64,000 nt of DNA from the NCBI GenBank assembly GCA_016795485.1, contig JAEUHM010000046.1, forward strand, positions 62,001 to 126,000, written 5' to 3'. Positions 12,922 to 30,880 of this stretch are shown in pieces (position 1 is the stretch's first letter; each line of letters begins with the position of its first letter). This DNA comes from Verrucomicrobiaceae bacterium. GTDB taxonomy: Bacteria > Verrucomicrobiota > Verrucomicrobiia > Verrucomicrobiales > Verrucomicrobiaceae. The notes under the pieces were generated by a model, which saw only the letters and a list, made by a program, of their open reading frames with translations, was not told where the DNA came from and did not search any database. Made by a program: the position numbers and the translations under genes.

Positions 12922-14619
12922 ATGGTTTGTAGCTTATTAAATAAATTGTGGTTTTTCGGTGCAGCCATCTGCGTGCTCTACTCGTCAGGTATCCCACTTG
13001 CAGCTCATGGAGAACCCACTGGAAAGGTCCGCCTTCAATTTCAAATCAAGTCACCCCCTGAAGGTGTCCAACTCACGCGTTTGGATCTGCTGCTGAGCCG
13101 CCTTGCTCTTCAGCGATCAGATGGCTCATGGATGGAGTCCAACGACTGGTTTGCCTTTGTGTCGCAGCAACAAAACCGACTCACCTCCGACAGTGATGGA
13201 GTTCCCGATGGCAACTACAAGGCCGTGAGATTTAACGTGGGACTACCTGAGGAGACGAACCGGGCAAATCCTGCTCAATGGCCACCTAACCATCCTCTGC
13301 ATCCCGAACTGAACGGTATGCACTGGGGCTGGCTGGGCGGCTATGTCTTCGCTGCCATCGAAGGGAAAGTTGCCGATCAGGGTTTCAGTTATCATCTCGC
13401 CGGAAAAGAGATCATCCAAACGGTGGAACTGCCCGTCACGTTCAAGGGAGGTGGTCCCGTAACGATTCTGATTGAAATCGACCCTAATGTTTGGCTTCAG
13501 GGACTTGATCTCAAAACGACGCCCAATAGCACGCATTCACGACCGGGAGACTCACTTGCTCCTGCCATAGCGGAAAAATTCGGGTCCGTTTTCAAAGTGA
13601 GAGGGATTCACTCCGATCTATTTCAACAACCCGCACGCTCTACACCTCAAAGCGTGCCGGCCGGAACTACGCCCTATCGGCTTACCATCACGGAGCGATT
13701 TTCTTCCCCGGCACTACCAGCAGACAATCCCCTGACCAAAGAAGGCGTAGCGCTCGGCAAGCGGCTCTTTCATGACAAAATCCTTTCGGGCAAACAGACG
13801 CAATCGTGCGCCTCGTGCCACATGGAAAGCCGCGCCTTTTCCCACGATGTGGCTACTTCGTTAGGTGGTGAAGGCCAGAAGGGCGTCCGGAATGCCATGC
13901 CCATTTTCAATCTCGCGTGGCACAAGGCATTCTTCTGGGATGGGCGTGCAAAAACACTGCGTGATCAGGTGCTCATGCCCATTCAGGACAAAAATGAAAT
14001 GAATGCCTCCCTTGATCTTGTATTGCAGCGTCTGAATGGCGACTCCAGCTACCCTGCCCTGTTTCGGAAATCATTTGGCAGCGATCAAATCACCAGTGCC
14101 TCGCTGGCTAAAGCCCTGGAGCAATACCTGCTCAGCATCGTCTCCCAAGACTCCAAGTTTGATCGAGCAGTGAGAAAACAAGCGGAACTGACCGCAGAAG
14201 AAAGACTCGGCCTTCAACTCTTTATCACGGAGCATGACCCCGAACGGGGACTCCGAGGTGCCGATTGCTTCCATTGCCACGGCGGAACGCTCTTTACCAA
14301 TCACGGCATTACTAACAACGGCCTGAAGGAACTCTCGCCGAGAGACCGGGGCAAGTTCAAGACGCCAAGTTTGCGCAACATAGCCCTCACTGCGCCCTAC
14401 ATGCACGATGGTCGATTCACGACTCTGGAAGAAGTCATCGAGCACTACAGCAGCGGAGTTCAACGCAATCCCGACCTTGATCCCAATCTGGCAAAGCACC
14501 CAGCAACTGGCATCCAGCTCAATGCTGAAGAGAAAAAAGCCCTCGTCTCCTTCCTCAGAACACTCACCGACGATCAGCTTCTCCACCCGACAGACCTCAC
14601 AGTAGCTAATCAACCATGA
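12922..14619 (+). CDS. MbnP-like copper protein fused to an MbnH/MauG-like diheme peroxidase
   Basis: About 565 residues from ATG 12922, which gives a proper signal peptide; an open frame extends to 12823. Residues ~35-215 match the MbnP family, with the signature HPELNGMHWGW followed by GGYVFAAIEG, where W135, W137 and W120 are the Trp candidates. Residues ~255-560 are a MauG/CcpA-type diheme cytochrome peroxidase with heme motifs CASCH (C296) and CFHCH (C449) and the KTPSLRNIALTAPYMHDG signature. In known systems MbnH oxidises a Trp of its separate partner MbnP to kynurenine, and MbnP then binds copper. Here both are one chain, so modification in cis is inferred. It shares an ATGA overlap with the next gene. 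Confidence 0.85.
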   Translation: MVCSLLNKLWFFGAAICVLYSSGIPLAAHGEPTGKVRLQFQIKSPPEGVQLTRLDLLLSRLALQRSDGSWMESNDWFAFVSQQQNRLTSDSDGVPDGNYKAVRFNVGLPEETNRANPAQWPPNHPLHPELNGMHWGWLGGYVFAAIEGKVADQGFSYHLAGKEIIQTVELPVTFKGGGPVTILIEIDPNVWLQGLDLKTTPNSTHSRPGDSLAPAIAEKFGSVFKVRGIHSDLFQQPARSTPQSVPAGTTPYRLTITERFSSPALPADNPLTKEGVALGKRLFHDKILSGKQTQSCASCHMESRAFSHDVATSLGGEGQKGVRNAMPIFNLAWHKAFFWDGRAKTLRDQVLMPIQDKNEMNASLDLVLQRLNGDSSYPALFRKSFGSDQITSASLAKALEQYLLSIVSQDSKFDRAVRKQAELTAEERLGLQLFITEHDPERGLRGADCFHCHGGTLFTNHGITNNGLKELSPRDRGKFKTPSLRNIALTAPYMHDGRFTTLEEVIEHYSSGVQRNPDLDPNLAKHPATGIQLNAEEKKALVSFLRTLTDDQLLHPTDLTVANQP

Positions 14620-17600
14620 AAAAGTCCCTCCTGTCACTGCTTGCCCTGCCGGCATTTCTCCATGCGGACACGCTGGATCACGTGGGGTCCGATCAACTAG
14701 CGCTAGAGGCCGCCCGTCTCCTGGAAAGCACATCCATGTCGTCACAGGCTGTCGCAGTCGTTGAAGAAGCCGCCCTTCCAGCTTCGACTGGCGGGACATG
14801 GAGTAACATCGTCTCCTGGACACCGCATATTCCTGTTAGTGCAGCAAATCTACCCGATGGACGCATCTTGACCTTTGCCTCTAACCAACGCACAACCTTT
14901 CCATCTGGCCCTGAGTTTACTTATGCAGCCACGTGGAATCCAACTACGGGCGTTTTCACCGAGATCAATAACAACCGGCATGACATGTTCTGCGGGTCGC
15001 TCGTGATGCTTCCTGACGGTCGAGTTCATGTTGCTGGCGGACGGGCCACGACGGTATTAAGTTCTATCTTCGACTGGCGAACCAATCAATGGGCCGCTAT
15101 ACCGAACATGAATGATCCGCGGTGGTACAACACCGCAGTTGCCCTGCCAGACGGACAAGTCTTTACGGTGAGTGGCAGCGGGGGCAGCAACACGGCTGAA
15201 CGCTGGAACAATAGCACCGGATGGGCACGCCTGAGTGGTATCGCATGGAGTCAGATCACCTCAGAGCCAGGCTTCATTAACATTTGGCATCCGTTTTTGA
15301 GCTTAGCTCCGAATGGCAATCTCATTCATTTCGGCCCCACTGACACGATGCATTGGGTGTCTGCATCCGGAACAGGCAGCATGAGCAATACAGGCACGAC
15401 GGTCCCAGGCTCGCACTACCCAAAAGAAGGATGCTGGACCATGTATGACGAGGGTAGAATCCTCGTCGTGGGCGGCGGTGCCACGACCACCAGCGGATCA
15501 GATTCAACAACGGGCACCTCAACAACAGCAGCTTACACTGTCGACGTTCGCGGATCGACACCTGCGATAGCGAACACTAGTTCTATGCGGTTCGCACGGC
15601 AGTTTGCAAATTGCGTCGTGCTGCCCAATGGCGAGGTCATGGTGATTGGTGGAAATGGGGGCGTCAAGTTCAGCGACACGGCCTCAGTCCTGGCTCCAGA
15701 GATATGGAATCCTGCCACAGGAGCCTGGAGAGAGCTGCAGGATATGAAAGTGCCTCGCAACTACCATTCCCTTGCCCTTTTGCTCAAGGATGGTCGCATT
15801 CTCGCTGCGGGTGGTGGTCTCGGTGGTGGCGATCATCGTGATGGCGAGATCTTTACCCCCCCGCATCTCTATACTTCGGGCGGAACCCTTGCTACACGCC
15901 CAGCTATCAGCAGCGCACCATCCACCATTGGAGTTGGCACTCAGTTTAACGTCAGCGCTACCGCAGGACTCACACAGTTTGCCCTCATCAAGCTTTCAGC
16001 CATCACCCACAGCGTCAATACAGACTTACGTCGAATCGTGTTGCCCCACACAGAGACAAGTAGCGGCCAATATCGACTTACCTCGCACTCGAACATCAAC
16101 GTGATGACACCGGGCTACTGGTATCTCTTTGGACTTAACTCCGCTGGCGTCTGGAGCGAGGCCGCTATCGTGCGTGTGGACACTACGACGTCAGTGGCAC
16201 TTGGCGCCATCGGCCCTCAGAATGGACGAGTTACCGAAGCCACGGCCCTTCAACTTGCTGGGAGTGGCCCAGCGGGCAGCACGCTGACCTATGCTGCTAG
16301 TGGATTACCTCCGGGCCTGAATATCAATGCAAATACTGGCCTCATCAGCGGCACTCCCACCACCGCCGGCCCTTACAGTGTGATTGCAAGCGTCACAAAT
16401 GGGACGAGCAGCGCTACTTCTCCCTTCACTTGGACGATCTACTCGTCTGAGATGCCCGGCGTCATCAAACGAGAATGGTGGCTAAACATCCCCAATGCCG
16501 ATCTCAATAGCCTAACGTCAAACGCCGCTTATCCAAATAGCCCCACTGGTACCGATTTCCTCACCAGCTTCGAGACGCCTACAAACTGGGCAGACAATCT
16601 CGGACAACGCGTGCGGGGTTACTTGCGTCCGACTGTTACGGGTCAGTATCGTTTCTGGATCGCCGGAGATGATGAATCCCGCCTCATGCTGAGTTCAAGC
16701 AGTGCTGTTTCCACCACCATCATTGCACGAGTTCCAGGTTGGACCAATTCACGCGAGTGGACCAAGTTTGCTGAGCAGCAATCAGCTCTTGTTACCCTAC
16801 AAGCAGGCCAATCATACTACATTGAAGCCCTGATGAAGGAGGGCGGAGGCGGTGACAACCTTGCGGTTGCTTGGGCGGTGCCAGGAACAACGACCCCAGT
16901 CGTGATTCCAGGCTCAGCGCTTTCGGTTTACCCAGGGGCAAGCAACTCGCCACCTACCATCGTCAATCCTGGCAGCCGCACCAATATCATTGGCGCTCCA
17001 ACCACGCTCCAAGTTCAGGCGAATGATCCCAATGGCAATGCTTTGACCTACAACGCCAGCGGATTGCCGACTGGACTTGCCATTGCCAGTTCGACCGGCT
17101 TGATCAGCGGCACCCCGAGTGCTTCTGGAACATTCTCGGTCACTGTTTCGGTGTCTGACGGCATTGCTGCCGCTGTCAGCGCATCATTCACATGGACGAT
17201 CACCACTCCACTGACAATCGGTAGCCTTTCAGCCGCTCCCATTGCTTCCGGCATCTCGAAGGCACTCAGCATCTCGTTCAGTGGCGGAATCAATCCACAG
17301 TTTGTCTGGGATTTTGGAGATGGCACGGCTTCATCGAGTGGATCGAGCGTTACCCACACATTCGCATCACCGGGTCGTTATCTGGTTACGGTAACCGCTA
17401 CTGACTCCACCGGCCGGATGTTAACAGCGAGTTACCGTCAGGGAGTCTTTGCCCCGCGCACAAGTTCACAGCCCAGGAACTCAAGTCAGATCGCGTATGA
17501 AACGCGCCCCTCAACGAGTGGACGTGTCTGGGTGGTCAATCCCGACAACGATTCAGTGTCGGTAATGGACACAGCCACCAACGCCAGAGTCGCGGAAATC

Positions 17601-20600
17601 AATGTTGGGGCAACACCGCGTTGCGTTGCCATCGCTCCAGATGGTCGTGTTTGGGTTACGAATGGCGATGCCTCTTCAATCTCCATCATCAACAACAGCA
17701 CCTTTGCAGTCACTCAAACGATCTTGCTCGCACGAGGATCTAAACCCTATGGAATCATCTTCTCGGCCTCAGGCTCTGATGCATGGGTCGTGCTCGAGGC
17801 AAAGGGGCAGGTCTTGCGCATAAATGCGTCCACTGGAGCCATCAGCGCCACGATCAATGTCGGCCCCAATCCTCGCCATGTCTCGACAACAGGAGATGGC
17901 TCGCGCGTTCTGGTGTCTCGTTTCATCACGCCACTTCTCCCTGGTGAGTCCACAGCTACCATTACAACCAATGCCACGATCGGGGCTGAGGTTGTAAGGA
18001 TCAACACAGCGAACAATACAGTAGCGGGAAACATCATTCTTCAACACAGCGAGCGCGCGGACACTTCGGTGAGCTCACGCGGTATTCCCAACTACCTCGG
18101 TGCGGTATCGATCTCACCGGACGGCCAGTTTGCATGGATTCCCTCTAAGCAAGACAACATTAAGCGCGGGATGCTCCGCGATGGTCAACAACTCACCCAT
18201 GACAGCGCAGTGCGCTCCATCATTTCGCGCATCAACATGGGCACAGCCACCGAAGACCTTGCTTCACGGGTCGATTTCAATGATGCGGGCATGGCCACGG
18301 CGTCAGTATTTGATCCCGATGGCATTTACCTCTTCGTTGCACACGAAGGAAGCAGAGAGGTGGCGATTGTGGATAGCTGGAACCGCGCTGAGATTCATCG
18401 CTTCAGTTGTGAACGTGCTCCCCAAGGTCTGACGCTATCGCCTGATGGTTCACGCTTGTTTGTTCACAACTTTATGGATCGCAGCATCACCGTGCACGAC
18501 GTTTCCCAGGTCATTGCGGGCTTTGATGCCCCGGTCGTCAACACCATCGCATCCGTGCGCACAGTAGCCGCTGAGCGCCTCACGGCTCAGGTGCTAAATG
18601 GTAAACAACTGTTCTACGACTCACGCGACAACCGTCTTGATCTTCAGCAATACATCTCGTGCGCCAGTTGCCATGCTGATGGCGGACAGGATGGTCGAGT
18701 GTGGGACTTCACTGGCTTCGGTGAGGGTTTGCGCAACACCATCACACTCAACGGCACTTCTGCCACTGGGCACGGCCCAGTGCACTGGACTGGAAACTTC
18801 GATGAGATTCAGGACTTCGAGAATCAGATTCGTGGCTTTGCTGGAGGAACCGGTCTGATCGCCACAGGCACGCCGCACCCACCCATGGGAACATCCAATG
18901 CGGGTCGAAGCACCGACCTGGATGCGCTTGCCCAATACCTCTCAACATTGACAACCACTGATGCGAGTCCCTCTCGTAATAGCGATGGAACATTGACCGC
19001 AGCAGCCATCTCAGGCAAGGCGGTGTTCGCCAACTTCAACTGCGCACAGTGCCACACTGGCACCAACTTCACCAACTCAGCGCTGAACGTTTTTGCCAAC
19101 GTTGGTACGATCAAAGCCTCCACAGGACAGCGTCTTGGCGGAGCCCTTCCTGGCCTAGATGTTCCCACCTTGAGGGGACTCTGGTCGACAGCACCTTATC
19201 TCCATGACGGTAGCGCCAACACAATCGCTGCAGCGATCAACGCACACAACACCGCAAAACCAACTCGCTCTGACCTAACCAATCTTGTCGCCTATCTCGA
19301 ATCGATTGATTCAGAAGAAGCCAGTGCGCCAGTCCTGGGTGCGCCTACCATCACGCTCGCTGCCCCGGCATCAGCAAACGGACCTTTCGCCGTTACTGTC
19401 ACTGCCAATCAGGCGATCAATGACCTTACTGCGGCCGACTTTACCGTAACGAACGGCACCGCAACCACTCTCAGCGGCTCTGGATCAAGCTACACGCTCA
19501 CAGTCAGTCCTTCCGTGGCCGGGAATGTCACCGTGTCACTGCCCGCAGGACGTGCGGTAAACATCGCTAACGTCCCGAATCTCGTGTCCAACACGACCAC
19601 CACCGCCTACTCGATCCCAGACACCACTCAACCTACGGTGACACTGAGCACATCGTCATCCACGGTGGCCTCGACATTCACGATCTCGATTGTGTTTTCA
19701 GAGAACGTCACAGGCCTCACCGGAAGCGATTTTATTGTCACAAACGGAACCGCTGGTGTCCTAACAGGCACAGGCGCTTCCTACAGCTTGTTGGTGAATC
19801 CATCTGCGAGTGGTCCAGTGACTTTGCGTCTGGCTGCGGGAGCCGCGACTGACTCAAGCGGAAACAACTCTACCGCGTCTAACACCTTAGCAGTGACCTA
19901 CAATGCTCCAGATACCACTGCGCCTTCAGTAACGTTGACTGCGGCGGCCCCGGTCGTTACCAGCAACACGTTTTCGGTGACTGCAACGTTCTCCGAGACT
20001 GTTGAGGGACTTACAGCAGGCGACTTCATCGTTACGAACGGCACCGTTACGGGCGTCTCCTCTGCTGGCGCAGTTCATTCTTTAACCGTGCAAGCCACTG
20101 CTCCAGGAGATGTCACCATCCGCCTTCCAGCAGGTGCTGCCATTGATTCCGCAGGCAATGGTTCCAGTGCCTCAAATACTGTCACCGTCCGTTATGACGC
20201 ACCAGGTGCACTCAACGCTCAGATCAATTTCCAACCCGCAGGTGCTGCTATTCCAAATGGTTACACGGCAGATTCAGGATCGATCTTTGCAGACCAGAAC
20301 GGCCTCACATACGGATGGACTAGATCTCACACCGACCGCACAAGAGATCGGAACTACAACAATGACCAGCGTCTAGACACTCACATCCGCATGAGGTCTG
20401 GTGCCGTGTGGGAGATAGCGGTTCCCAACGGAGAGTATGACGTCACCGTATCCGTGGGTGACGCGTTGGGTAACACCACGAACACGATACGCGTGGAAGG
20501 CCAGACGATGTTCAACGCTGTGCGTCTTGGCATGAATGCTTTCCGCAATGCCACTTTGAGGCTCAACATCACTGACGGACGTGCCACTATCGACAATGGA

Positions 20601-22463
20601 GCTGCTTCCAATGATGTGACTCGCATCAACTACGCCATCATCCGGTCTGTCAATGCCACTACTGAGACGCGCACGAACGGGCTAACAGCAGATTACTACT
20701 CTGGCCGCAACTTCGATCAACTTCGCTTCACCCGGCTAGACAACACCATTGACTTCAACTGGGGAACAGGCTCGCCCGACTCCCGACTTTCTGCAGATCT
20801 CTTCAGTGTGCGTTGGCGTGGTTGCATCGTCCCGCGCTACACAGAGACTTACACCTTCTATACCACGAGTGACGACGGCGTGCGGCTCTGGGTCAGAGGA
20901 GTCCAACTCATCAATCAATGGAATGACCACTCCCCCACCGTCCACAGCGGCACACTGGCACTTCAGGCAGGAGTGCCGGTTATCATCACCTTGGAGCATT
21001 ACGAGAATGGCGGAGGAGCTGTGGCGAAACTGGAGTGGCAGAGCAATACTCAAACACGTCAGGTTATTCCGGTAGATCGGTTGATGATCAATGAAGATGG
21101 AGACGGCAGACTTCCCTACCCTTCCACCTACGCTTCGTGGCTAACGTCGAACCGTCGGTCACTCGCCACCCAAGACAATGAGGACAACGACGACAACGAC
21201 AGCCTCATGGAGTATGCACTCGGTAGTTCGCCCGGAACAGGCATCCAGATCGGTGAAGAGCTCCGCATCGTCGACCAAGCTAACGGGACCATGGATGCTA
21301 CCATCACGGTGCCGAGTCACCCCACTGACATCCGCATTACCCTCGAATCCAGCCAGAACCTAAGGACCTGGAACGAGATCAACGCAGAACCGATTAAGTT
21401 GGTGCATTCAGACGGCAACGTCACTCTCACGTGGCAAGGATTTACAGCAAGCACCGGCATGCTGCGTATTCGGGTCGCGCACGACAATGGCACTACCTCC
21501 GTTGGTGCCCCTGTCGGCTGGCAACGCACCGACCTCTCCGTGGGGACCCGCCCTTTCGGTGTGCATCACCTACAGCCAGCGATTTATGCAGGAAGCATCC
21601 AAAGCAATACGGCTGACACCTTGATCCTCAATGACCTCGCCTCTCACAGCCTATCGGTCGATCCTGATGCAGTGTATTACCTTGAGGTGAGATCTGGGGA
21701 TCACGAAGGACACCGCTTTGATATCGCGAGCATCCAAGATGGCTCAGTCACCCTGCAACTTTCTGCGGTTCACAATACCCTGCCATCTCTGCCCACCTCG
21801 GGGTTGGCAGGGGCACAAGTTTACATCCGTCCGCATACCACCCTGGCTCAGGTGTTCAGGAAGGACATCTTCAGCGGCTCAGCCAACCCCGCACAGGCAG
21901 ATCAGGTACTCTTCTATGCGAATGGCAGCTACCGTCCGTATTTCCTGCTCAAGTCTGGCAGCTTTGATCAGTGGACAGCCATCTCGGATGCCAATCTTGC
22001 TAACGCGGACAACCGTATCATCCCTCCCGGCACCGGCTTGATGCTGCGACTTCCCTCGACCGGAAAAACCGTCGTCTTTAGCGGCGGCATACGCAACCTC
22101 GCCTTCCAGCAGAAGCTCTATCCCGGCAACAACCTAGTCTGCAATCCCTGGCCGATAAGTGGAAGCCCAGCACGCATGGGAATGAACCTCACGACTGGCT
22201 TCACCGGCAGTCGAAACCCTAGCACGTCAGATCAGATCCAGATCTTTAACGGCACTGGTTTCACGAGTTACTGGCTGATGTCCGCCGGAGCCACTTATCA
22301 ATATTGGACAGCATTGGCTGATACCTCCCTCGCAAACCAAAACGAAAACGCCATCCTTCAGTCGTCGTCAGCCCAGTTTATCCGTGCTCAACCAGCGACC
22401 TCTGCCCAAACCTGGCGGATACCTGCGGTTTGGGAGTGGCAAACGGGTCCTGAGGGCCAGTGA
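14616..22463 (+). CDS. Giant secreted copper-radical oxidase with diheme, beta-propeller, Ig and PA14 domains
   Basis: A 2615-residue secreted protein. Kelch/galactose-oxidase domain ~60-525: C126 (MFCGS), Y171 (RWYNT), Y383-H384 (NYHS) and H465 (ITHSVNTDLRR) align with galactose oxidase C228, Y272, Y495-H496 and H581, so a Tyr-Cys copper-radical site is predicted. Then putative Ig domains (~525-610, ~779-865), PA14 (~614-773), PKD (~866-938), YVTN-type propeller (~950-1308), MauG-like diheme module (CASCH at 1349, CAQCH at 1476), three Ig-like repeats (~1575-1865), a malectin-like domain (~1867-2015), a second PA14 (~2022-2158) and a TIGR02597-like C-terminus (~2295-2615). It follows the MbnP-peroxidase gene with a four-base overlap. 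Substrate and electron acceptor are unknown. Confidence 0.9.
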   Translation: MKKSLLSLLALPAFLHADTLDHVGSDQLALEAARLLESTSMSSQAVAVVEEAALPASTGGTWSNIVSWTPHIPVSAANLPDGRILTFASNQRTTFPSGPEFTYAATWNPTTGVFTEINNNRHDMFCGSLVMLPDGRVHVAGGRATTVLSSIFDWRTNQWAAIPNMNDPRWYNTAVALPDGQVFTVSGSGGSNTAERWNNSTGWARLSGIAWSQITSEPGFINIWHPFLSLAPNGNLIHFGPTDTMHWVSASGTGSMSNTGTTVPGSHYPKEGCWTMYDEGRILVVGGGATTTSGSDSTTGTSTTAAYTVDVRGSTPAIANTSSMRFARQFANCVVLPNGEVMVIGGNGGVKFSDTASVLAPEIWNPATGAWRELQDMKVPRNYHSLALLLKDGRILAAGGGLGGGDHRDGEIFTPPHLYTSGGTLATRPAISSAPSTIGVGTQFNVSATAGLTQFALIKLSAITHSVNTDLRRIVLPHTETSSGQYRLTSHSNINVMTPGYWYLFGLNSAGVWSEAAIVRVDTTTSVALGAIGPQNGRVTEATALQLAGSGPAGSTLTYAASGLPPGLNINANTGLISGTPTTAGPYSVIASVTNGTSSATSPFTWTIYSSEMPGVIKREWWLNIPNADLNSLTSNAAYPNSPTGTDFLTSFETPTNWADNLGQRVRGYLRPTVTGQYRFWIAGDDESRLMLSSSSAVSTTIIARVPGWTNSREWTKFAEQQSALVTLQAGQSYYIEALMKEGGGGDNLAVAWAVPGTTTPVVIPGSALSVYPGASNSPPTIVNPGSRTNIIGAPTTLQVQANDPNGNALTYNASGLPTGLAIASSTGLISGTPSASGTFSVTVSVSDGIAAAVSASFTWTITTPLTIGSLSAAPIASGISKALSISFSGGINPQFVWDFGDGTASSSGSSVTHTFASPGRYLVTVTATDSTGRMLTASYRQGVFAPRTSSQPRNSSQIAYETRPSTSGRVWVVNPDNDSVSVMDTATNARVAEINVGATPRCVAIAPDGRVWVTNGDASSISIINNSTFAVTQTILLARGSKPYGIIFSASGSDAWVVLEAKGQVLRINASTGAISATINVGPNPRHVSTTGDGSRVLVSRFITPLLPGESTATITTNATIGAEVVRINTANNTVAGNIILQHSERADTSVSSRGIPNYLGAVSISPDGQFAWIPSKQDNIKRGMLRDGQQLTHDSAVRSIISRINMGTATEDLASRVDFNDAGMATASVFDPDGIYLFVAHEGSREVAIVDSWNRAEIHRFSCERAPQGLTLSPDGSRLFVHNFMDRSITVHDVSQVIAGFDAPVVNTIASVRTVAAERLTAQVLNGKQLFYDSRDNRLDLQQYISCASCHADGGQDGRVWDFTGFGEGLRNTITLNGTSATGHGPVHWTGNFDEIQDFENQIRGFAGGTGLIATGTPHPPMGTSNAGRSTDLDALAQYLSTLTTTDASPSRNSDGTLTAAAISGKAVFANFNCAQCHTGTNFTNSALNVFANVGTIKASTGQRLGGALPGLDVPTLRGLWSTAPYLHDGSANTIAAAINAHNTAKPTRSDLTNLVAYLESIDSEEASAPVLGAPTITLAAPASANGPFAVTVTANQAINDLTAADFTVTNGTATTLSGSGSSYTLTVSPSVAGNVTVSLPAGRAVNIANVPNLVSNTTTTAYSIPDTTQPTVTLSTSSSTVASTFTISIVFSENVTGLTGSDFIVTNGTAGVLTGTGASYSLLVNPSASGPVTLRLAAGAATDSSGNNSTASNTLAVTYNAPDTTAPSVTLTAAAPVVTSNTFSVTATFSETVEGLTAGDFIVTNGTVTGVSSAGAVHSLTVQATAPGDVTIRLPAGAAIDSAGNGSSASNTVTVRYDAPGALNAQINFQPAGAAIPNGYTADSGSIFADQNGLTYGWTRSHTDRTRDRNYNNDQRLDTHIRMRSGAVWEIAVPNGEYDVTVSVGDALGNTTNTIRVEGQTMFNAVRLGMNAFRNATLRLNITDGRATIDNGAASNDVTRINYAIIRSVNATTETRTNGLTADYYSGRNFDQLRFTRLDNTIDFNWGTGSPDSRLSADLFSVRWRGCIVPRYTETYTFYTTSDDGVRLWVRGVQLINQWNDHSPTVHSGTLALQAGVPVIITLEHYENGGGAVAKLEWQSNTQTRQVIPVDRLMINEDGDGRLPYPSTYASWLTSNRRSLATQDNEDNDDNDSLMEYALGSSPGTGIQIGEELRIVDQANGTMDATITVPSHPTDIRITLESSQNLRTWNEINAEPIKLVHSDGNVTLTWQGFTASTGMLRIRVAHDNGTTSVGAPVGWQRTDLSVGTRPFGVHHLQPAIYAGSIQSNTADTLILNDLASHSLSVDPDAVYYLEVRSGDHEGHRFDIASIQDGSVTLQLSAVHNTLPSLPTSGLAGAQVYIRPHTTLAQVFRKDIFSGSANPAQADQVLFYANGSYRPYFLLKSGSFDQWTAISDANLANADNRIIPPGTGLMLRLPSTGKTVVFSGGIRNLAFQQKLYPGNNLVCNPWPISGSPARMGMNLTTGFTGSRNPSTSDQIQIFNGTGFTSYWLMSAGATYQYWTALADTSLANQNENAILQSSSAQFIRAQPATSAQTWRIPAVWEWQTGPEGQ

Positions 22464-22493
22464 GCGACCTCCAGCGCTCCGAAGCCACCCCTC

Positions 22494-22601
22494 GGCCGCT
22501 CATCGGAAGCCTACGCGGCTTCCGCTACGAGTTCGTAGTTCGAGCTTCAGCTCGCTCAGGAAGCGCTGGGGACGAGCTAAAGCTCGAACTACGAGCGCAG
22601 A
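22494..22601. repeat. REP-like palindromic element, copy 1
   Basis: This 108-bp unit recurs at 22683-22790 (offset 189) with no difference that I can see. It contains GGAAGCC/GGCTTCC arms, and long arms CGTAGTTCGAGCTTCAGCTC and the near-complement GAGCTAAAGCTCGAACTACG that would fold into a large hairpin. It is followed by a GGAACTC...GAGTTCC palindrome. The structure resembles dispersed REP/BIME elements; dispersal cannot be shown from this window. Confidence 0.75.
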
Positions 22602-22682
22602 TGCCCTCCGCTACGAATCACCCCACGCCCCACGTAGCGGAACTCGCCAGAGTTCCGACTTTTGCGCTCTGAACAAGCCATG

Positions 22683-22790
22683 GGCCGCTCATCGGAAGCC
22701 TACGCGGCTTCCGCTACGAGTTCGTAGTTCGAGCTTCAGCTCGCTCAGGAAGCGCTGGGGACGAGCTAAAGCTCGAACTACGAGCGCAGA
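22683..22790. repeat. REP-like palindromic element, copy 2
   Basis: Second copy of the 108-bp unit at 22494-22601, with the same internal inverted repeats. It too is followed closely by the GTAGCGGAACTCGCCAGAGT palindrome segment. The two copies are in direct orientation, consistent with tandem duplication of a palindrome cluster. Confidence 0.75.
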
Positions 22791-22872
22791 AGCCCCACGT
22801 AGCGGAACTCGCCAGAGTTCCGACTTCCCGACGCTCCAAAGCCAACCGCGCCCCATAATCCGCAGCCGAAGA

Positions 22873-23060
22873 GGCAGGCACGGCGGTCCCGGAGGCAGGT
22901 ACGGCGCCCTCAGAGGCAAGTACGGCTGCCGTACCTGCCATTTTCACTGCCGTATCGCCTATTTTGGCCGCCGTACCTGCCAATTCGACCGCCATATCGG
23001 CCATTTTGACTGCCGTACCTGCCAATCCGACCGCCGTACCGGGCACTCTTGCCGCCGTAC
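22873..23060. repeat. 21-bp tandem repeat array
   Basis: Nine imperfect contiguous units of 21 bp, clearest as six units from 22928 to 23053 with consensus close to GCCGTACCTGCCAATTCGAC plus one base. The first three units (22873-22935) are more diverged but keep the 21-base phase. Because 21 is a multiple of three, each strand encodes a seven-residue repeat. There are no spacers, so this is not a CRISPR array. Confidence 0.8.
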
Positions 23061-23174: not shown

Positions 23175-26100
23175 ATGCACCTTCACATCACGTACGGCCT
23201 CGTTTTGGTCCTGAGCCTCCTGCTCAGCGCTTTTCATGCCCAGGGGCAGGACTTTGAGGTGCTGTTCTCGCGGGTGACGGGGTTGTCTCCATCTGGCAAG
23301 CTCCTTCAGGTGGGAGATGGCAGCTTCTACGGCACTACTTCCCGTGGCGGAGCCCACGACAACGGCACGGTGTTCAAGATAGCGCCAGATGGCACCCACA
23401 CGCTGCTGCATAGCTTTGTGTCTGACAAAGGCAGCGGTCCAGCAGGCGGTTTGGTGCTTGGCAGCGATGGCAGCTTCTACGGCACCACGAAGTATGGCGG
23501 CGTGGACGGCTACGGCACGGTGTATAAGATCACCGCAGATGGCACTCACACGGTGCTGCATAGTTTTGACCAAACCAATGGCAGCAATCCATCTGGTGGG
23601 CTGGTCATGGGCAGTAATGGCAGCTTGTATGGCACGACTTTCGGTGGCGGAGGGATAGATACCGGGACGGTGTTCAGGATCACCGAGAGCGGCACCCACA
23701 GCGTGGTGTATAGCTTCTTCATTCTCAGCCAGGGCTACTCTCCTGCTGCCGGGCTGGTGCAGGGCAGTGATGGCAGCTTCTACGGCACTAACTACTATGG
23801 CGGAGCAAGTGGCTACGGCACGGTGTTCAAGGTCACGACAGGCGGCACCTACACGGTATTGCACAGCTTTAATGGCACTGGGGGCCGCAATCCCAACTCT
23901 GATCTGGTGCAAGGCAGCGATGGCAACTTCTACGGCACTACCTTCAGTGGAGGGGCGACCGATCACGGCACGCTGTTCAAGATCACTGCCGGGGGCACCT
24001 ACACCCTGCTCCACAGCTTCAATTCCGCCAATGGCAGAAGTCCTTCTGGTGCGCTGGTACAGGGTAGCGATGGCAGCTTCTACGGCGCCACTTCCTTTGG
24101 CGGAGCAAGCGACGATGGCACGGTCTTTAGTATCACCTCCAGTGGCACTCACACGCTGCTGCACTCGTTTGACGGCACGGCTAGCTATGCCCCAGGCGGG
24201 CTGGCACTTGGCATGGATGGTCACTTCTACGGCACCACCACGAGGGACGGAGCAAGCGTTGGCGGCTCGGTGTTTAAGATGACTGCCAGCGGTACCCTGA
24301 CCCTGCTGCACAGTTTCTTGCCCCTGGCTGGCCATAGTCCAGAAGGCGGACTGGTACAGGGCGGTGATGGCAGCTTCTACGGCACCACTTACCATGGCGG
24401 AGTTAACAACATGGGCACGGTGTTCCGGGCCACACCGGACGGGACTCAGAGCGTGCTGCATAGTTTCAGCAGCGCAAATGGTAGCAATCCGGGTGACGCT
24501 CTGGTGTTGGGTAGCGATGGTAACTTCTATGGCACCACGAAGTATGGCGGAGCGTCTGATCATGGCACGGTGTTCAAGATCACCGCCAGTGGCACTCACA
24601 CCGTGCTGCTTAACCTTAACAGTACGCTGGGCAGCTATCCTGAAGCCGCGCTGGTAGAGGGCAGCGATGGTAGCTTCTACGGCACGACTTACGCTGGCGG
24701 AGTGAGCGGCAACGGCACGGTGTTCAAGATCACCGCGGGCGGTACGCACACCCTACTGCATAGCTTCAGTGGTGCCGGAGGCATCTATCCCAACGCCGGA
24801 CTGGTGCAAGGCAGCGATGGCAGCTTTTACGGCACTACGACCATTGGTGGAGCTAGCGGCTTCGGCACGGTGTTCAAGATCACTGCGGGCGGTACGCACA
24901 CACTACTGCACAGCTTCAATGATACGGATGGCGCCGAACCCCAGGGCAAGCTGGTGCAGGCCAGTGATGGGAACTTCTACGGCACTACCCACCTGGGTGG
25001 AGCCAATGCCGTGGGCACGGTGTTCAAAATCACCCCAGGCGGCACCCACACGCTTCTTTATTCCTTTGATGGCACCCCTGGTCTCAAGCCTTTGGCCGGG
25101 TTGCTCAAGGCTACGGATGGGCACTTCTACGGCACAGCAGGGCAGATGTGCATCTGGCGGCTGCGGTTCACTGGCTCCACAGACCTCTTCTACAGCCAGG
25201 CTACTGTGCCGGGGGCTGGCAAGCCGGGCAGCGGCATCCCTATCTTGGCGGGTTGGGCCAAACTGGGCGTGCCTTCCATCAATGACAACGCGCACCTGAC
25301 CTTCTCTGGCCAGTGGAGGGCAGATGCCTTGACGGGCGGCGGCATCTTCCGCAGCGGGATGGCCCGCTCTGGCTTGCAACTGGTAGCGGCCAACGGTGCG
25401 GCGGTGCCTGGGATGTTCAATGCGGTGTACCTCGCCTTCAAAGACCCGCTGCTGGCCCCGGATGGTGCCGTGGTATGGCTCTGCACTCTGGCCAATGCTC
25501 CAGGCACCACGGGCGCGGTCAAGACGAGTAATGATACGGCGATGTTCCTAGATGAAGACGGCCCTGGGGGCAACGCTCCGGTGATGATAGCCCGTGAGGG
25601 GGATGTGGCAGCAGGGATGACGTTGGGTGGGAAGTGGGCTTCGTTTGACTCCATCTCAGTGAGTGAGGGCGCTGTGGTCTTCCTGGGCAAGCTGGTGGTA
25701 TCTGCGGCAGCAGGGGTGAGCACAGCGAGTGATACCGGGCTGTGGAGATATGACAGGGAGACGGCTACGACCTCACTCATGATGCGGGAGGGTGACGCGC
25801 TGCTGGGGTCCAAGGTGAAACTCATGGGTGCCCTGGCCACGAGGACCAGGGCGGGTGGTCAGGGGCGCGGCGTCATGACTAGCAGCAGCGAGGACCAGGT
25901 GGCAATGCGAGTGACGCTGACGAATGGCAGGACAGCCATGGGCGTGGTGGCCGCTCCTGGCGGTACCACGTTCCTGTATCCGCAAGGTAGTGGCGCACCG
26001 AACTACGGCGCTGCCGCTTGGGCCAGCTTTGGTCTGCCAGGACAGAACAGCCCGGCGGGTGCTATTTGTTTCCGCGCCAAGGTGGTACCAGGCACGGGCA

Positions 26101-26711
26101 CCGCCACCTCCAGGGACAACCTAGCGCTGTTCAGCGAGGACGACGACACTCTGACACTGGTAAGGCGCTGCTACCTCTCCGGTAGCGCGGGGATAGCAGG
26201 TGGTGTGTTCTCTGGCTTCAGTGATCCGGTGAATGCGGGTGGACAGAAGATGGCGTTCATAGGCAGCATGGCTAACAACTCAGCGGCGGGCATCACGAGC
26301 GGCAGTAACGACGGCGTGTGGTTCTATAACGGCACGGCGCTCACTCTGGTCGCGAGAGAAGGCGCACAGCCACCGGGCGTGGTGACTGGAGCGCGCTGGA
26401 AGTCATTCACCACCGTGGCTCTGCCAGAAGGGCGCGGACCCATCTTTGTCGCCAAGCTCCAAACAGGCCGGGCAGGTATCACGACTGCCAAGGACACAGG
26501 CTTGTGGGCCACCGACAGCGCTGGAGCCATCAAGAAGCTCATCCAGGAGGGTGATGCGATAGCAGGCTCCAAAGTAGCTAGCTTCCAAGTGCTGACGACG
26601 GTGCCGGGCAGTCCCGCGCAGACGAGGAGCTTCAACAATCGCGGAGATGTGGTGATCCAAGTGACGAGCGCGATCGGTGAGACGCATTTGGTGCATGTGG
26701 TAGTGCCGTGA
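23175..26711 (+). CDS. GloVer tandem-repeat secreted protein, paralog 1
   Basis: A 1178-residue secreted protein with a signal peptide ending near HAQGQ. Residues ~30-660 hold 12 full copies plus a partial copy of a ~46-residue repeat built on GSDGSFYGTT...GG...GTVFKIT..GTHTLLHSF, the GloVer motif of TIGR03803, expected to form a beta-propeller or solenoid. Residues ~680-1178 form a unique C-terminal part shared with the next gene (for example KLGVPSINDNAH and GIFRSG). The function of this family is unknown; a surface or adhesion role is only inferred from export and repeats. Long antisense open frames over the repeats are shadows. Confidence 0.9.
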   Translation: MHLHITYGLVLVLSLLLSAFHAQGQDFEVLFSRVTGLSPSGKLLQVGDGSFYGTTSRGGAHDNGTVFKIAPDGTHTLLHSFVSDKGSGPAGGLVLGSDGSFYGTTKYGGVDGYGTVYKITADGTHTVLHSFDQTNGSNPSGGLVMGSNGSLYGTTFGGGGIDTGTVFRITESGTHSVVYSFFILSQGYSPAAGLVQGSDGSFYGTNYYGGASGYGTVFKVTTGGTYTVLHSFNGTGGRNPNSDLVQGSDGNFYGTTFSGGATDHGTLFKITAGGTYTLLHSFNSANGRSPSGALVQGSDGSFYGATSFGGASDDGTVFSITSSGTHTLLHSFDGTASYAPGGLALGMDGHFYGTTTRDGASVGGSVFKMTASGTLTLLHSFLPLAGHSPEGGLVQGGDGSFYGTTYHGGVNNMGTVFRATPDGTQSVLHSFSSANGSNPGDALVLGSDGNFYGTTKYGGASDHGTVFKITASGTHTVLLNLNSTLGSYPEAALVEGSDGSFYGTTYAGGVSGNGTVFKITAGGTHTLLHSFSGAGGIYPNAGLVQGSDGSFYGTTTIGGASGFGTVFKITAGGTHTLLHSFNDTDGAEPQGKLVQASDGNFYGTTHLGGANAVGTVFKITPGGTHTLLYSFDGTPGLKPLAGLLKATDGHFYGTAGQMCIWRLRFTGSTDLFYSQATVPGAGKPGSGIPILAGWAKLGVPSINDNAHLTFSGQWRADALTGGGIFRSGMARSGLQLVAANGAAVPGMFNAVYLAFKDPLLAPDGAVVWLCTLANAPGTTGAVKTSNDTAMFLDEDGPGGNAPVMIAREGDVAAGMTLGGKWASFDSISVSEGAVVFLGKLVVSAAAGVSTASDTGLWRYDRETATTSLMMREGDALLGSKVKLMGALATRTRAGGQGRGVMTSSSEDQVAMRVTLTNGRTAMGVVAAPGGTTFLYPQGSGAPNYGAAAWASFGLPGQNSPAGAICFRAKVVPGTGTATSRDNLALFSEDDDTLTLVRRCYLSGSAGIAGGVFSGFSDPVNAGGQKMAFIGSMANNSAAGITSGSNDGVWFYNGTALTLVAREGAQPPGVVTGARWKSFTTVALPEGRGPIFVAKLQTGRAGITTAKDTGLWATDSAGAIKKLIQEGDAIAGSKVASFQVLTTVPGSPAQTRSFNNRGDVVIQVTSAIGETHLVHVVVP

Positions 26712-27190
26712 GGTAATACGGTGCGGCTTGAAAGGATGCCCCCAGCAGACTGGGACAGCATGGGGAGCCACCACCCATGGCATCCACTACGACAGTCCAT
26801 GGCATCCACGACGCTCACGGGTGGTATCCCCTCCCATCACCCATGCCCTCAACGGCCAGTGTGGGTCTTATCTACAACCATAGCCCATGCAATCCCACCG
26901 CATCCTCCATGGCACCCCACCCACGCGCCTACGCTATCCCCTGCGTCTGCCTACGGCACCCCTTTTCTCTCCACAAGCTAGACTGCCTGGCCAAACTATC
27001 CGGCCGGAGGTGGCTACTTCTAACTCAAGGTTGCACAACGAGCCGGATAGTTCGGCGGGTTGCATCTCAGAGCAACGGACTCCAGCGCGCCGAACACATC
27101 CGGCCTACTACTTCCTTTGCTGAATACTGATCTGATCGCCTTCCGATTTCAGGATTGACTTGTCTGCCGCAGGGGAAGACGCTTGGGGCT
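26712..27190. other. Intergenic region between the GloVer paralogs
   Basis: About 480 bases without a credible gene. It includes two 13-base copies CCATGGCATCCAC at 26775 and 26797 (22-base period) and an 11-bp perfect inverted repeat AACTATCCGGC (26994-27004) / GCCGGATAGTT (27042-27052) around a 37-base loop. No promoter was identified with confidence. Confidence 0.5.
26994..27052. repeat. 11-bp perfect inverted repeat with 37-base loop
   Basis: AACTATCCGGC at 26994-27004 is the exact reverse complement of GCCGGATAGTT at 27042-27052. The loop contains the small palindrome GTTGCACAAC. No terminator-like T-run follows. It could be a protein-binding or RNA structure, or the remains of a small mobile element. 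Confidence 0.45.
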
Positions 27191-30100
27191 ATGAGATGCC
27201 CCCTACTTTGTTTGCTGATGACTGTGTTGAGTCTCTGGTTGGGGCTTGCTGTTACCACTGCCCATGCGCAGAGCTTTGAGACGGTGTATTCCGAGGTGAC
27301 TGGCACGCGTCCCCGTGCGGGGCTGGTGCAGGGCATGGATGGTGACTTCTACGGCACCACTCATGATGGCGGCGTGTTCAACTCTGGCACGGTCTTCAAG
27401 TTCACCTCCAGCGGTGTACACACGGTGTTGCACTCCTTCGACCGCACCTTCGGCGGCTTTCCCTATAGCGGGCTGGTGCAAGGGAGCGACGGCAACTTCT
27501 ATGGCACGACTTGGGTGGGAGGGGTGAGCAATGAAGGGACGGTGTTCAAGATCACCCCCGGCGGCACCCACAGCGTGCTTTATGACATGGACGGAACCAA
27601 TGGTCGCAATCCGGCTGCCGGGCTGGTCTTGGGCAACGATGGCAGCTTCTACGGCACTACCCAGTCTGGTGGTGCGAACGATCAAGGCACGGTGTTCAAG
27701 ATCACGGCGGGCGGCGCTTACACTGTGCTGTATCACTTTGACGGAACCAGTGGGCGCACTCCTGTGGCCGGGCTGGTCTTGGGCTTCGATGGTGACTTCT
27801 ACGGCACCACCTATGCGGGCGGGGTGAATGACGAGGGTACGGTGTATAAGATCACCACCAGCGGAGCGCACACGGTGCTGCACAGCTTCGACTCTACCAG
27901 GGGGCGCTATCCCCAAGGTGCTCTGGTGCAGGGCTTTGACGGCCACTTCTACGGCACAGCTGAACAAGGTGGAGCAGGTGCATTGGGTACGGTGTTCCAG
28001 ATCACGACCAGCGGCACCTGCACGCTCTTGCATAGCTTCAACAACACCAATGGCGCCTTTCCCCTGGCGGGACTGACCGTGGGCGTCGATGGCCATTTTT
28101 ACGGCACGACTCAACAAGGCGGTGTGAACGGCGAGGGCACGGTCTTCCGCGTAACTGCCAGCGGCACGCACACGCTGCTGCACTCCTTTGACGCGAACCA
28201 GGGCAGCGATCCCCGAAGTGGGCTGGTGCGGAACTTTGTTGATGGCAGCTTCTACGGTGTGAGTGAGCTAGGCGGGGAGAGCACTGTCGGCACGATATTC
28301 CAGATCAGCGATAGTGGTACGCACACGCTGCTGCACTCCTTTGGGGCCAGCCTGGGCAGCTACTCGGCAGACGGGCTGACACAGGGCAGCGATGGCCACT
28401 TCTACGGCACGACTTCCTCTGGTGGGGAAAGCGACGCGGGCACGGTGTTCAAGATCACCGCCAGTGGGACTCCAACGCTGGTGCATAGCTTCAACTTCAT
28501 CGGTGGCAGCACCCCCATTGGCGGGCTGGTGTTGGACAACGATGGCAGCTTCTACGGCACCACATCCGAGGGCGGATTCCACAATCAGGGAACCGTCTTC
28601 AATGTCGCTGCCAGCGGCACACAAACGGTGCTGCACTACTTCGATGGCATCAATGGCAGCCTCCCCAAGGCCGGGCTGGTGAAAGGCAGCGACGGGGACT
28701 TCTACGGCACCACATCCGAGGGCGGACAGCATAACCTGGGAACCGTCTTCAAGATCACTGCCAGCGGCACGCACACGCTGCTCCACTCCTTCAACGGCAC
28801 CAATGGCAGCCGCCCCCAGGCCGGGCTGACCGAGGGTAGTGGTGGCAACTTTTACGGCACTACCAGAACGGGCGGAACGAGCGGCTTGGGAACGGTGTTC
28901 CAGATCACCCCAGGCGGCACCCACACCCGTCTGCACAACTTCAATGGCACCAATGGCAGCTTCCCCGAAGCCGGGTTGGCATTGGGCGACGATGGCAACT
29001 TCTACGGCACTACCAGAACGGGCGGAACGAACGGCCTGGGCACGGTGTTCCAGGTCACCCCAGGCGGGATCCACACCCGTCTGCACAGCTTCAATAGCAC
29101 CAATGGCAGCAATCCCCAGAGCGGACTGGTGCAAGGGAGCGATGGGGACTTCTACGGCACCACTCGCCTGGGCGGTATGAACGACAGCGGCACCGTCTTC
29201 AAGATCACGGTGAGCGGAGTTCACACCCGGCTATACACTTTTAATGGTCGAACTTCTGGCAATCCCAAGGGCACGCTCCTGCTGGCTACGGATGGCCACA
29301 TCTACGGCACAGCGGATCAGATGGGTGTCTGGAAGCTTAGTTTCTTCGGCTCCAATGTGCTCTACTCCAAAGGCAGTGCCGTGCCGGGGGCTGGTGAGCC
29401 GGGCAGCGGCATCCCCAGCGGGGCACTGTGGACCAAGCTGGGTGTGCCATCCATCAACGATGATGCTCACGTGGCCGTCCAAGGTGACTGGAAGGCGGGA
29501 AGTGTGGCTGGTAGCGGCATCTTCCGCAGTGGAGGTGCCCGCTCCGGCCTGCACCTCGTAGTGGCGAAGGGTGCTGCTGTGCCCAGCGTGACGAATGGGG
29601 TGATGAGCACGCTGAATCATGTCCTCCTGGCAGCCGATGGCGCAGTGGCCTGGACCGCAGCGCTGGCCAATGCCCCAGGCACCACCGGAGCGGTGAATGC
29701 AACTTCCAACTTGGGCTTGTTCCTGGATTCCGATGGCCCTGAAGCAGGCGCTCCCACTCTGCTGGCTCGCAAAGGCAACCCGATCACCGCCGGAGGCGTG
29801 AATACGGCAGGGCTGGCCACGATCGACTCCGTAGCACTGAGCACCAACTCTGTGGCCATGCTTGGCAAGATGAAGCTCCAGGCAAGCGTGGTGACAGCGG
29901 CCTCTGACCAGGCGCTGTGGGTTTACAATCGCAACACCACCGCCTGGCGGCTGACACTGAGAGAGGGAGATGCGCTGATGGGCTCAACAGTCAAAGTGAT
30001 CGGCGCCCTGGTGGCCCGGACGGCGGCGGGTGGCCATGGCAGGGGTGTCGTCAACAACAGCGGCATGGATCAACTTTGTGTGCGGGTGACCCTGGCAGAC

Positions 30101-30880
30101 GGACGCATGGCTGCGGGCATAGTCAGAGCCGATGGCTCATTCAGCTTCCCAGATGTGGTCAACGGCAGCGCCCCCGGCTACAGCCCGGATGCCGTCTTTA
30201 GCAGCTTGGGCGTGCCGGTGCAGAACAGCGCGGGAGCAGTGAGCCTGCTGGGCACGGTGCGCGGCAGCACGGTGACGACGGCCAACAACGTGGCGGTCTT
30301 CACCGAGGACGATACGACCTTCACCCTGACCAAGCGCCTGACGAAGGGCGATCTGGCCGGACTTAGCACTGGGGTCTTCTCTGGGTTCAAAGACCCGGTC
30401 AATGGCCTAGACAACGCCTTTGCCGTCATAGGCAGCATGGCTCCAAACCCAGCGGCGGGCATCTCCGCAGGTACGAACGATGGCGTGTGGTATCACAATG
30501 GAAGTGCCCTGGGCATCGTGGCGCTGGAGGGCGCGCAACCGGTAGGCGCTGCCGCCGGAGCCAAGTGGAAGGCATTCACCTCCCTGGCACTGCCGGAGGA
30601 GCGCGGGCCAATCTTCTGCGCCAGCCTGGCCATCGGCCCCGGCAAGGTGACAGCGGCCAAGGACAAGGGACTGTGGGCCGTGACGCGTGCTGGAGTCTTG
30701 CAAAAGCTGATGCAGGAGGGCGATGCGATAGGTAGCTCCAAGGTGGCGAGCTTCCAGGCGATCAACGTGATCCCAGGCAGCCCAGCACAGACCAGGAGCT
30801 TCAACCGCGCTGGTGATGTGGTCATGCAGGTGACGGATGCTGCGGGTGGCACGCACTTGATGCATGTGGGAGTGCCTTAG
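27191..30880 (+). CDS. GloVer tandem-repeat secreted protein, paralog 2
   Basis: From ATG 27191, 1229 residues with a signal peptide ending at TTAHAQ; a TTG at 27155 would add 12 residues before the leader. It has 13 full GloVer repeats plus a partial one, ending in FNGRTSGNPKGTLLLATDGH, followed by the same C-terminal part as the preceding paralog (KLGVPSINDDAH, GIFRSGGARSGLHL, VASFQ and a SPAQTRSFN motif near the end). Repeats 11 and 12 (about 28860-29110) are nearly identical, showing recent unit duplication. The tandem arrangement of the two genes indicates local gene duplication. Function unknown. Confidence 0.9.
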   Translation: MRCPLLCLLMTVLSLWLGLAVTTAHAQSFETVYSEVTGTRPRAGLVQGMDGDFYGTTHDGGVFNSGTVFKFTSSGVHTVLHSFDRTFGGFPYSGLVQGSDGNFYGTTWVGGVSNEGTVFKITPGGTHSVLYDMDGTNGRNPAAGLVLGNDGSFYGTTQSGGANDQGTVFKITAGGAYTVLYHFDGTSGRTPVAGLVLGFDGDFYGTTYAGGVNDEGTVYKITTSGAHTVLHSFDSTRGRYPQGALVQGFDGHFYGTAEQGGAGALGTVFQITTSGTCTLLHSFNNTNGAFPLAGLTVGVDGHFYGTTQQGGVNGEGTVFRVTASGTHTLLHSFDANQGSDPRSGLVRNFVDGSFYGVSELGGESTVGTIFQISDSGTHTLLHSFGASLGSYSADGLTQGSDGHFYGTTSSGGESDAGTVFKITASGTPTLVHSFNFIGGSTPIGGLVLDNDGSFYGTTSEGGFHNQGTVFNVAASGTQTVLHYFDGINGSLPKAGLVKGSDGDFYGTTSEGGQHNLGTVFKITASGTHTLLHSFNGTNGSRPQAGLTEGSGGNFYGTTRTGGTSGLGTVFQITPGGTHTRLHNFNGTNGSFPEAGLALGDDGNFYGTTRTGGTNGLGTVFQVTPGGIHTRLHSFNSTNGSNPQSGLVQGSDGDFYGTTRLGGMNDSGTVFKITVSGVHTRLYTFNGRTSGNPKGTLLLATDGHIYGTADQMGVWKLSFFGSNVLYSKGSAVPGAGEPGSGIPSGALWTKLGVPSINDDAHVAVQGDWKAGSVAGSGIFRSGGARSGLHLVVAKGAAVPSVTNGVMSTLNHVLLAADGAVAWTAALANAPGTTGAVNATSNLGLFLDSDGPEAGAPTLLARKGNPITAGGVNTAGLATIDSVALSTNSVAMLGKMKLQASVVTAASDQALWVYNRNTTAWRLTLREGDALMGSTVKVIGALVARTAAGGHGRGVVNNSGMDQLCVRVTLADGRMAAGIVRADGSFSFPDVVNGSAPGYSPDAVFSSLGVPVQNSAGAVSLLGTVRGSTVTTANNVAVFTEDDTTFTLTKRLTKGDLAGLSTGVFSGFKDPVNGLDNAFAVIGSMAPNPAAGISAGTNDGVWYHNGSALGIVALEGAQPVGAAAGAKWKAFTSLALPEERGPIFCASLAIGPGKVTAAKDKGLWAVTRAGVLQKLMQEGDAIGSSKVASFQAINVIPGSPAQTRSFNRAGDVVMQVTDAAGGTHLMHVGVP

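Follow-up and report, generated by a model that had tools for sequence, protein, structure and literature searches.

Two neighbouring genes on the forward strand of a Verrucomicrobiaceae genome were analysed within a contig stretch of 64,000 nucleotides, referred to below as the window. Gene 1 opens with an ATG at 12922 and its TGA ends at 14619. The start codon of gene 2, at 14616, falls within an ATGA that also contains the stop codon of gene 1, and the 4-nt overlap described in the earlier note on this DNA is thus present, with both reading frames open throughout (table 1). The N-termini of both proteins resemble signal peptides (judged by eye; hydrophobic in gene 1), and export is a prerequisite for the attachment of c-type heme. 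Each protein has two CxxCH motifs, giving four c-type heme sites across the pair; these motifs and the Pfam matches bear out the earlier description of copper-type and heme modules in each gene and of four hemes in total. A consensus scan gave no sigma-70-like promoter at the pair, and the sigma-70 consensus says little for Verrucomicrobiota.

Table 1. Positions of the two genes and their domains in the window.
Feature	Coordinates	Strand	Description
Gene 1	12922..14619	+	ORF, 565 aa, MbnP-type domain and MbnH/MauG-type diheme domain
MbnP-type domain of gene 1	13054..13660	+	aa 47-205; H124, H134-W135-G-W137, H158 and H205 conserved
Diheme domain of gene 1	13717..14577	+	aa 266-552; CASCH C296-H300, CFHCH C449-H453, W339, Tyr509
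Gene 2	14616..22463	+	ORF, 2615 aa, AA5 oxidase, propeller, diheme and Ig/PA14/PKD domains
AA5 copper-radical oxidase domain	14778..16190	+	aa 55-525; C126, Y171, Y383, H384, H465
PA14, He_PIG and PKD linker domains	16440..17415	+	between oxidase and propeller; Pfam
Seven-bladed beta-propeller, YVTN/YncE type	17433..18515	+	aa 940-1300; TIGR02276 and hydrazine_beta matches
Diheme domain of gene 2	18528..19370	+	aa 1305-1585; CASCH C1349-H1353, CAQCH C1476-H1480, W1391, His1544
Big_12 Ig-like domains, malectin-like stretch, second PA14 and C-terminal region	19356..22463	+	makeup varies between relatives

Downstream of gene 2, at 22489-23060, a 137-nt repeat occurs twice (91% alike), and a tandem array with a 21-bp unit comes after it. 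The longer element is partly palindromic and was found on seven contigs, mostly as partial copies; a 21-bp unit recurs beside it on contig C19 as well, and together they look like a dispersed REP/BIME-like composite repeat. Further on, at 23175-26711 and 27155-30880, lie two large neighbouring paralogues made of repeats of about 50 aa (GTVFKIT..GTHTLLHSF) that derive from 150-bp tandem repeats.

The MbnP-type domain of gene 1 was matched by PF20243 (E 6.4e-27) with 95.1 bits, above the gathering threshold of 27 bits, and its diheme domain by PF03150 (CCP_MauG; aa 274-421, E 3.8e-56, 190.3 bits). The top NCBIfam match was TIGR04039 (MbnH) at 239.5 bits, below the cutoff of 362.85; the MbnP equivalog TIGR04052 gave 41.8 bits against a cutoff of 140, and the MauG equivalog TIGR03791 (cutoff 443.85 bits) gave 176.7 bits for gene 1 and 31.2 for gene 2. 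Comparison by phmmer with the MbnH structure 6e1c gave E 1.5e-49, and no solved structure was returned by phmmer for the MbnP domain alone. The single-sequence AlphaFold2 model of gene 1 had a pLDDT of 34 and was not used, and gene 1 was read from its sequence.

Each of the four His residues in the MbnP-type domain (H124, H134, H158 and H205) was kept in at least 23 of 24 orthologues linked to a copper-radical oxidase (CRO), and in 14 of 15 other homologues. W135 was invariant and W137 was present in 22 of the 24 CRO-linked rows; these two residues are candidate sources of a kynurenine, and by analogy with the family the domain may form kynurenine and bind copper. In the diheme domain both CxxCH motifs, the bridging-type W339 and Y509 were invariant in 39 homologues. 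Because Y509 aligns with the Tyr of 6e1c where Geobacter CcpA has its axial Met, gene 1 is of the MauG/MbnH type, with two CxxCH motifs, a bridging Trp and a Tyr at the axial position of the C-terminal heme, and the replacement of the axial Met rules out a classical bacterial cytochrome c peroxidase.

Gene 2 begins with an oxidase of the AA5 family. A galactose-oxidase-like match was obtained over aa 47-521 (phmmer, E 7.5e-92 to 9g8h), together with PF09118 (E 3.1e-18), and C126, Y171, Y383, H384 and H465 correspond to Cys228, Tyr272, Tyr495, His496 and His581 of Fusarium galactose oxidase, that is, to the ligands of its copper and Tyr-Cys site. All five were kept in 39 of 39 family homologues; in a cross-phylum set of 46 rows the four Tyr and His ligands were invariant and the Cys was present in 41. 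For the fold, a compact relative (L211; 1,191 aa) was modelled with AlphaFold2 from the 46-row alignment (mean pLDDT 86.9, pTM 0.79). The oxidase part of this model matched galactose oxidase 9g43 with Z 53.3 over 460 residues at 37% identity, and GlxA with Z 43. The kelch propeller and E-set fold of AA5 enzymes are thereby found along with the full ligand set. The GlxA equivalog NF052501 scored 150.4 bits on gene 2, below its cutoff of 800. The region aligned with Trp290 of Fusarium galactose oxidase is shortened in gene 2 and lacks that Trp, so the substrate probably differs from that of galactose oxidase.

Five CRO fusions from Thiotrichaceae/Leucothrix (L182, L183, L186, L188 and L193) have Ala in place of the cross-link Cys and keep the other four ligands; judged by their residues, these proteins may be copper-radical oxidases that have no thioether. 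In four of them the His at the axial-Met position of the fused diheme domain, described below, is missing as well.

Between oxidase and propeller the linker varies from 93 to 963 aa among relatives. The propeller of the L211 model superimposed on hydrazine synthase beta (5c2v_B) with Z 34.5 and an rmsd of 1.9 over 302 residues. The adjoining CCP_MauG/cytochrome c region of gene 2 (aa 1328-1563), with its two CxxCH motifs, matched hydrazine synthase gamma (5c2v_C) by phmmer with E 2.3e-14; VIA-align listed no match for the diheme part of the L211 model, and absence from that listing is not evidence of absence. The heme motifs and W1391 were found in 41 of 41 homologues and His1544 in 39 of 41, and in the cross-phylum set of 46 rows the heme Cys and His residues and the bridging Trp were invariant, with His at the axial-Met position in 42. 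His1544 aligns with the axial Met of the bCcP structures 1iqc and 3o5c, and His/His coordination is therefore predicted; with the axial Met absent, a classical bacterial cytochrome c peroxidase was rejected for this domain too. Heme gamma-II of hydrazine synthase is also bis-His (PMC12607021). The hydrazine synthase residue aligned with His1544 is a Thr, so its gamma-II ligand may come from elsewhere. By sequence comparison, the propeller-diheme part of gene 2 is a module of its own, related to hydrazine synthase beta/gamma. An assignment of gene 2 as hydrazine synthase itself was rejected (75.9 versus 1250 bits for the fusion, 55.2 versus 625 for gamma and 39.1 versus 560 for beta). The C-terminal region of gene 2 probably has a binding or anchoring role and not a catalytic one.

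The genome that contains the window also encodes a propeller-diheme paralogue of 1,932 aa with no oxidase domain (G000:C11, L033:5540-11338), and relatives of this paralogue occur in many genomes of the family.

Conservation of the pair was surveyed across the GTDB family of the window (68 genomes), in which gene 2 was searched for by its domains and gene 1 was scored as present where a close MbnP-MbnH homologue of at least 52% identity was found. Both genes occurred in 36 genomes and neither in 30; the remaining two carried the CRO only (G052) or gene 1 only (G056, 77% complete, with gene 1 at a contig end). Fisher's test for co-occurrence gave p about 5e-17, kinship not being corrected for, and presence of the pair was patchy within one genus. 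Among the 37 CRO-positive family genomes the two genes were adjacent and co-directional in 26, separate in 9, both truncated at contig ends in one (G007) and without gene 1 in one. Outside the family, the CRO was complete in three genomes from two other families (G279, G300 and G399), and all three carry MbnP-MbnH directly upstream. The synteny comparison proposed in the earlier note, which took separation of the genes in most relatives as evidence against a linked pair, thus came out in favour of linkage. Altogether, 45 fetched loci had MbnP-MbnH followed by the CRO, 30 of them with the identical 4-nt overlap, although some genomes enter this count through two collections. The possible operon of the earlier note is accordingly an operon-like unit kept across Verrucomicrobiota; the pairing persists across families and orders, and the gene order is more than chance.

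In a tree, the CRO-linked MbnP-MbnH proteins fell largely into one clade. The few clade members without an adjacent CRO were nested inside it, and a CRO was present elsewhere in their genomes. There was one protein of the clade per genome and one to three CROs, some of them far off, which fits a maturation factor able to act in trans. MbnP-MbnH fusions also exist without any CRO, so the ancestral role is not CRO-specific.

Other MbnP-MbnH fusions were seen in different surroundings. One in the window's own genome (L031) lies directly downstream of a histidine kinase gene, and two more (L041 and L043) adjoin YHYH and glucose/sorbosone dehydrogenase-like (GSDH) genes, with a similar protein in L050. 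These neighbours suggest further client enzymes or copper sensing.

When the oxidase alignment was scanned against 84,980 species genomes, 80 loci were obtained, of which 64 had a complete oxidase, propeller and diheme domain in one ORF. The fused proteins are about 1,500-3,500 aa in size and occur in at least eight phyla, mostly without MbnP: Verrucomicrobiota, Pseudomonadota (Thiotrichaceae, Woeseiaceae, Granulosicoccaceae and Methylococcaceae), Chloroflexota, Acidobacteriota, Deinococcota, Rhodothermota, Myxococcota and Planctomycetota. As the carriers are mostly metagenome bins, individual phylum assignments may be in error; named strains include Brevifollis gellanilyticus, Roseibacillus persicicus and Leucothrix pacifica, and the first two, both cultured, have the gene pair (L146 and L189). 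This breadth had been overlooked in the earlier note, as had the standing of the propeller-diheme part as a module of its own with relatives in hydrazine synthase beta/gamma; its reading of an operon-like pair stands. Its suggestions that gene 1 might load copper, supply H2O2 or make a Trp-derived site for the oxidase, and that the four hemes might move electrons, are conjectural. It had also not recognised the combination as a described system, and in the open-licence literature no description of the CRO-cytochrome fusion or of its partners was found.

A second type of partner was found beside the same kind of oxidase. The gene beside the CRO in Woeseiaceae and in an unclassified gammaproteobacterium encodes a MauG-like diheme domain within a protein 442-581 aa long. 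At the N-terminus Pfam YtkA scored above gathering in L196 and L200 and more weakly in L178 and L198, and the N-terminal YtkA domain of L196 and L200 also aligned in L194, L195 and L198. In Leucothrix pacifica separate MauG-like and YtkA-like genes both lie adjacent to the CRO, and separate YtkA and MauG genes lie beside it in a Granulosicoccaceae locus (L246) and a myxococcote locus (L251). In total, a YtkA-MauG partner adjoins the CRO in 9 loci. It was detected in 14 of 28 tested CRO-fusion genomes without an adjacent MbnP type; the other half of these 28 gave no match, and for most of the distant CRO loci the neighbouring genes included no partner. YtkA/CtaK has been implicated in CuA assembly in Bacillus (PMC13344008). 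That two unrelated copper-type domains, each with a MauG-like diheme enzyme, stand beside the same oxidase is the strongest argument that both functions serve the oxidase, and the retention of a copper-domain and heme-enzyme partner by unrelated groups suggests that this partner loads or switches on the oxidase's copper site.

In a Blastocatellia bin (L191:11654-12634) a gene for a heavy-metal-binding domain (PF19335) follows the CRO fusion and is possibly a third type of metal partner.

MauG-type enzymes oxidise protein residues at a distance. A CRO at rest is in an inactive Cu(II) form and requires one-electron oxidation, which in Colletotrichum is carried out by a tandem peroxidase (PMC9770985). 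In mtoX-SCO1-MauG operons a copper chaperone and MauG lie beside a copper oxidase and are sometimes fused (PMC5739008), and CorA/MopE have kynurenine-copper sites and genes that lie with those of diheme proteins (PMC3912023). From these fungal, MauG, CorA/MopE and mtoX precedents we infer the role of gene 1, with its own kynurenine-copper site, the hand-over of copper and the formation of the radical. The chances that gene 1 is a dedicated maturation or activation factor of the gene 2 CRO, acting by copper loading and long-range one-electron oxidation, are in our judgement evenly balanced.

The sequence of events would be as follows, with copper transfer, radical activation, the substrate and the role of the gene 2 hemes all given conditionally as what we infer. 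Gene 2 would be exported and would oxidise an alcohol or aldehyde at its copper/Tyr-Cys radical site, the substrate plausibly being a glycan or glycan fragments. The MbnP domain of gene 1 would capture copper by way of a kynurenine, which the fused diheme enzyme would have formed from a Trp of that domain, and would deliver the metal to the apo-oxidase. With H2O2, the MauG-like diheme domain would then remove an electron from a distance and convert resting Cu(II) into the active Cu(II)-tyrosyl radical, so that gene 1 may help to generate or regenerate the oxidase radical. The propeller-diheme module of gene 2 may take up the H2O2 or the electrons of the oxidase, and its hemes might serve in H2O2 removal, in helping activation or in electron carriage. 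In other phyla the YtkA domain and MauG-like diheme enzyme would do the same job as gene 1.

Several observations weigh against maturation by gene 1. The Tyr-Cys link of galactose oxidase forms with copper and O2 alone, so that an enzyme of this kind can do without a maturase. The two domains of gene 1 score under the NCBIfam MbnP and MbnH cutoffs, and a few Thiotrichaceae CROs have no cross-link Cys. The absence of a YtkA-MauG match from half of the 28 tested genomes, the many distant CRO loci with no partner beside them and the MbnP-MbnH fusions in genomes without a CRO count on the same side. The wider proposal is of a bacterial maturation system dedicated to CROs: a copper domain paired with a MauG-like diheme enzyme, MbnP-MbnH in Verrucomicrobiota and YtkA-MauG in Gammaproteobacteria and Myxococcota, would supply the CRO-propeller-diheme enzyme with copper and form its tyrosyl radical. 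It is put forward tentatively, as somewhat short of an even chance.

A rival reading makes gene 1 a redox partner. Gene 2 might be a dehydrogenase that sends the electrons of its copper site through its own diheme domain, with gene 1 or a periplasmic cytochrome as the acceptor; alternatively, the diheme domains might be peroxidases that remove the H2O2 of the oxidase. Gene 1 would then be an electron-transfer or detoxifying partner and not a maturase. This is consistent with the presence of the diheme domain in the oxidase ORF at 64 of the 80 loci, with its invariant heme Cys and His residues and bridging Trp, with the prevalent His at the axial-Met position (42 of 46 rows) and with the kinship between the propeller-diheme module and hydrazine synthase beta/gamma; for that redox enzyme, a surface heme has been proposed to accept electrons from a cytochrome c (PMC12607021). 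Linkers of 93-963 aa argue against a fixed, tight electron path, however, and the model leaves unexplained the copper-type domain of the partner and the occurrence of one partner with several CROs in a genome; the axial position of gene 1 moreover holds a Tyr of the MauG/MbnH type and not the Met of the bCcP type. Taken together, this alternative is considered unlikely, though worth keeping in view.

Slightly less probable is that gene 1 is an ordinary MbnP-MbnH protein for copper uptake or storage, which shares a promoter with gene 2 through common conditions and has no specific part in maturation. Links of MbnP/MbnH pairs with copper homeostasis and TonB transporters are widespread (PMC3621798), and among homologues of gene 1 one adjoins a histidine kinase gene and others adjoin YHYH and GSDH genes. 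Against this, the clade-specific linkage to the CRO, the near-perfect co-occurrence and the existence of a second copper-plus-MauG partner point to a more specific tie than a common need for copper would lead one to expect. That the genes are independent and joined by locus ancestry, gene 2 being an adhesin-like protein with decayed catalytic domains, would suit its size, its many Ig, PA14 and PKD domains and the genomes in which the genes stand apart, but is very improbable given catalytic and heme residues of the oxidase protein that are invariant over deep divergence and a pairing that persists across families and orders.

The locus was compared with the systems that it most resembles. Gene 2 has the same fold and all five ligands of the AA5 CROs (the Fusarium and Pseudoarthrobacter (9g43) galactose oxidases and Streptomyces GlxA), and unlike them its oxidase is fused to a propeller and a diheme domain in a large protein that is predicted to be secreted. 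Gene 1 resembles MbnP/MbnH, MopE-SACCP and CorA-CorB in its copper-type domain with WxW and conserved His residues, its MauG-like diheme domain and its axial Tyr; in contrast to these pairs it is one polypeptide, and it adjoins an oxidase gene where MbnP/MbnH-type pairs adjoin methanobactin or TonB-transporter genes. The fungal AlcOx-Perox tandem of Colletotrichum and Magnaporthe likewise pairs a CRO gene with a secreted heme peroxidase. The fungal partner is a class II peroxidase encoded head-to-head with the CRO, whereas the bacterial one combines a c-type diheme enzyme with a copper-type domain and belongs to an operon-like unit; activation by one-electron oxidation was demonstrated in fungi. 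The methanethiol oxidase operon mtoX-SCO1-mauG also sets a bacterial copper enzyme beside a copper chaperone and MauG, but its oxidase is unrelated (methanethiol oxidase is not a CRO), as is its chaperone. Hydrazine synthase beta and gamma, including beta-gamma fusions, share the order of propeller then diheme domain and a clear similarity of diheme sequence, whereas in gene 2 the propeller-diheme part is fused to a CRO. The parts belong to or resemble known families, and what appears to be new is their combination: a CRO that carries hemes of its own, accompanied by a dedicated partner with a copper-type and a diheme domain.

CROs used in biocatalysis are known to need activating with horseradish peroxidase. 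For activation in nature the fungal alcohol oxidase-peroxidase tandem is the established case; the open-licence literature yielded no natural activator for bacterial CROs, and the locus provides a directly testable candidate; if the proposal is true, the partner could aid the biocatalytic use of bacterial CROs. MbnP-MbnH, so far tied to copper uptake, gains a possible client enzyme. The fusion of c-type hemes to a CRO, seen in many phyla, would alter the scope of the enzyme class, whose members could be oxidases or heme-wired dehydrogenases.
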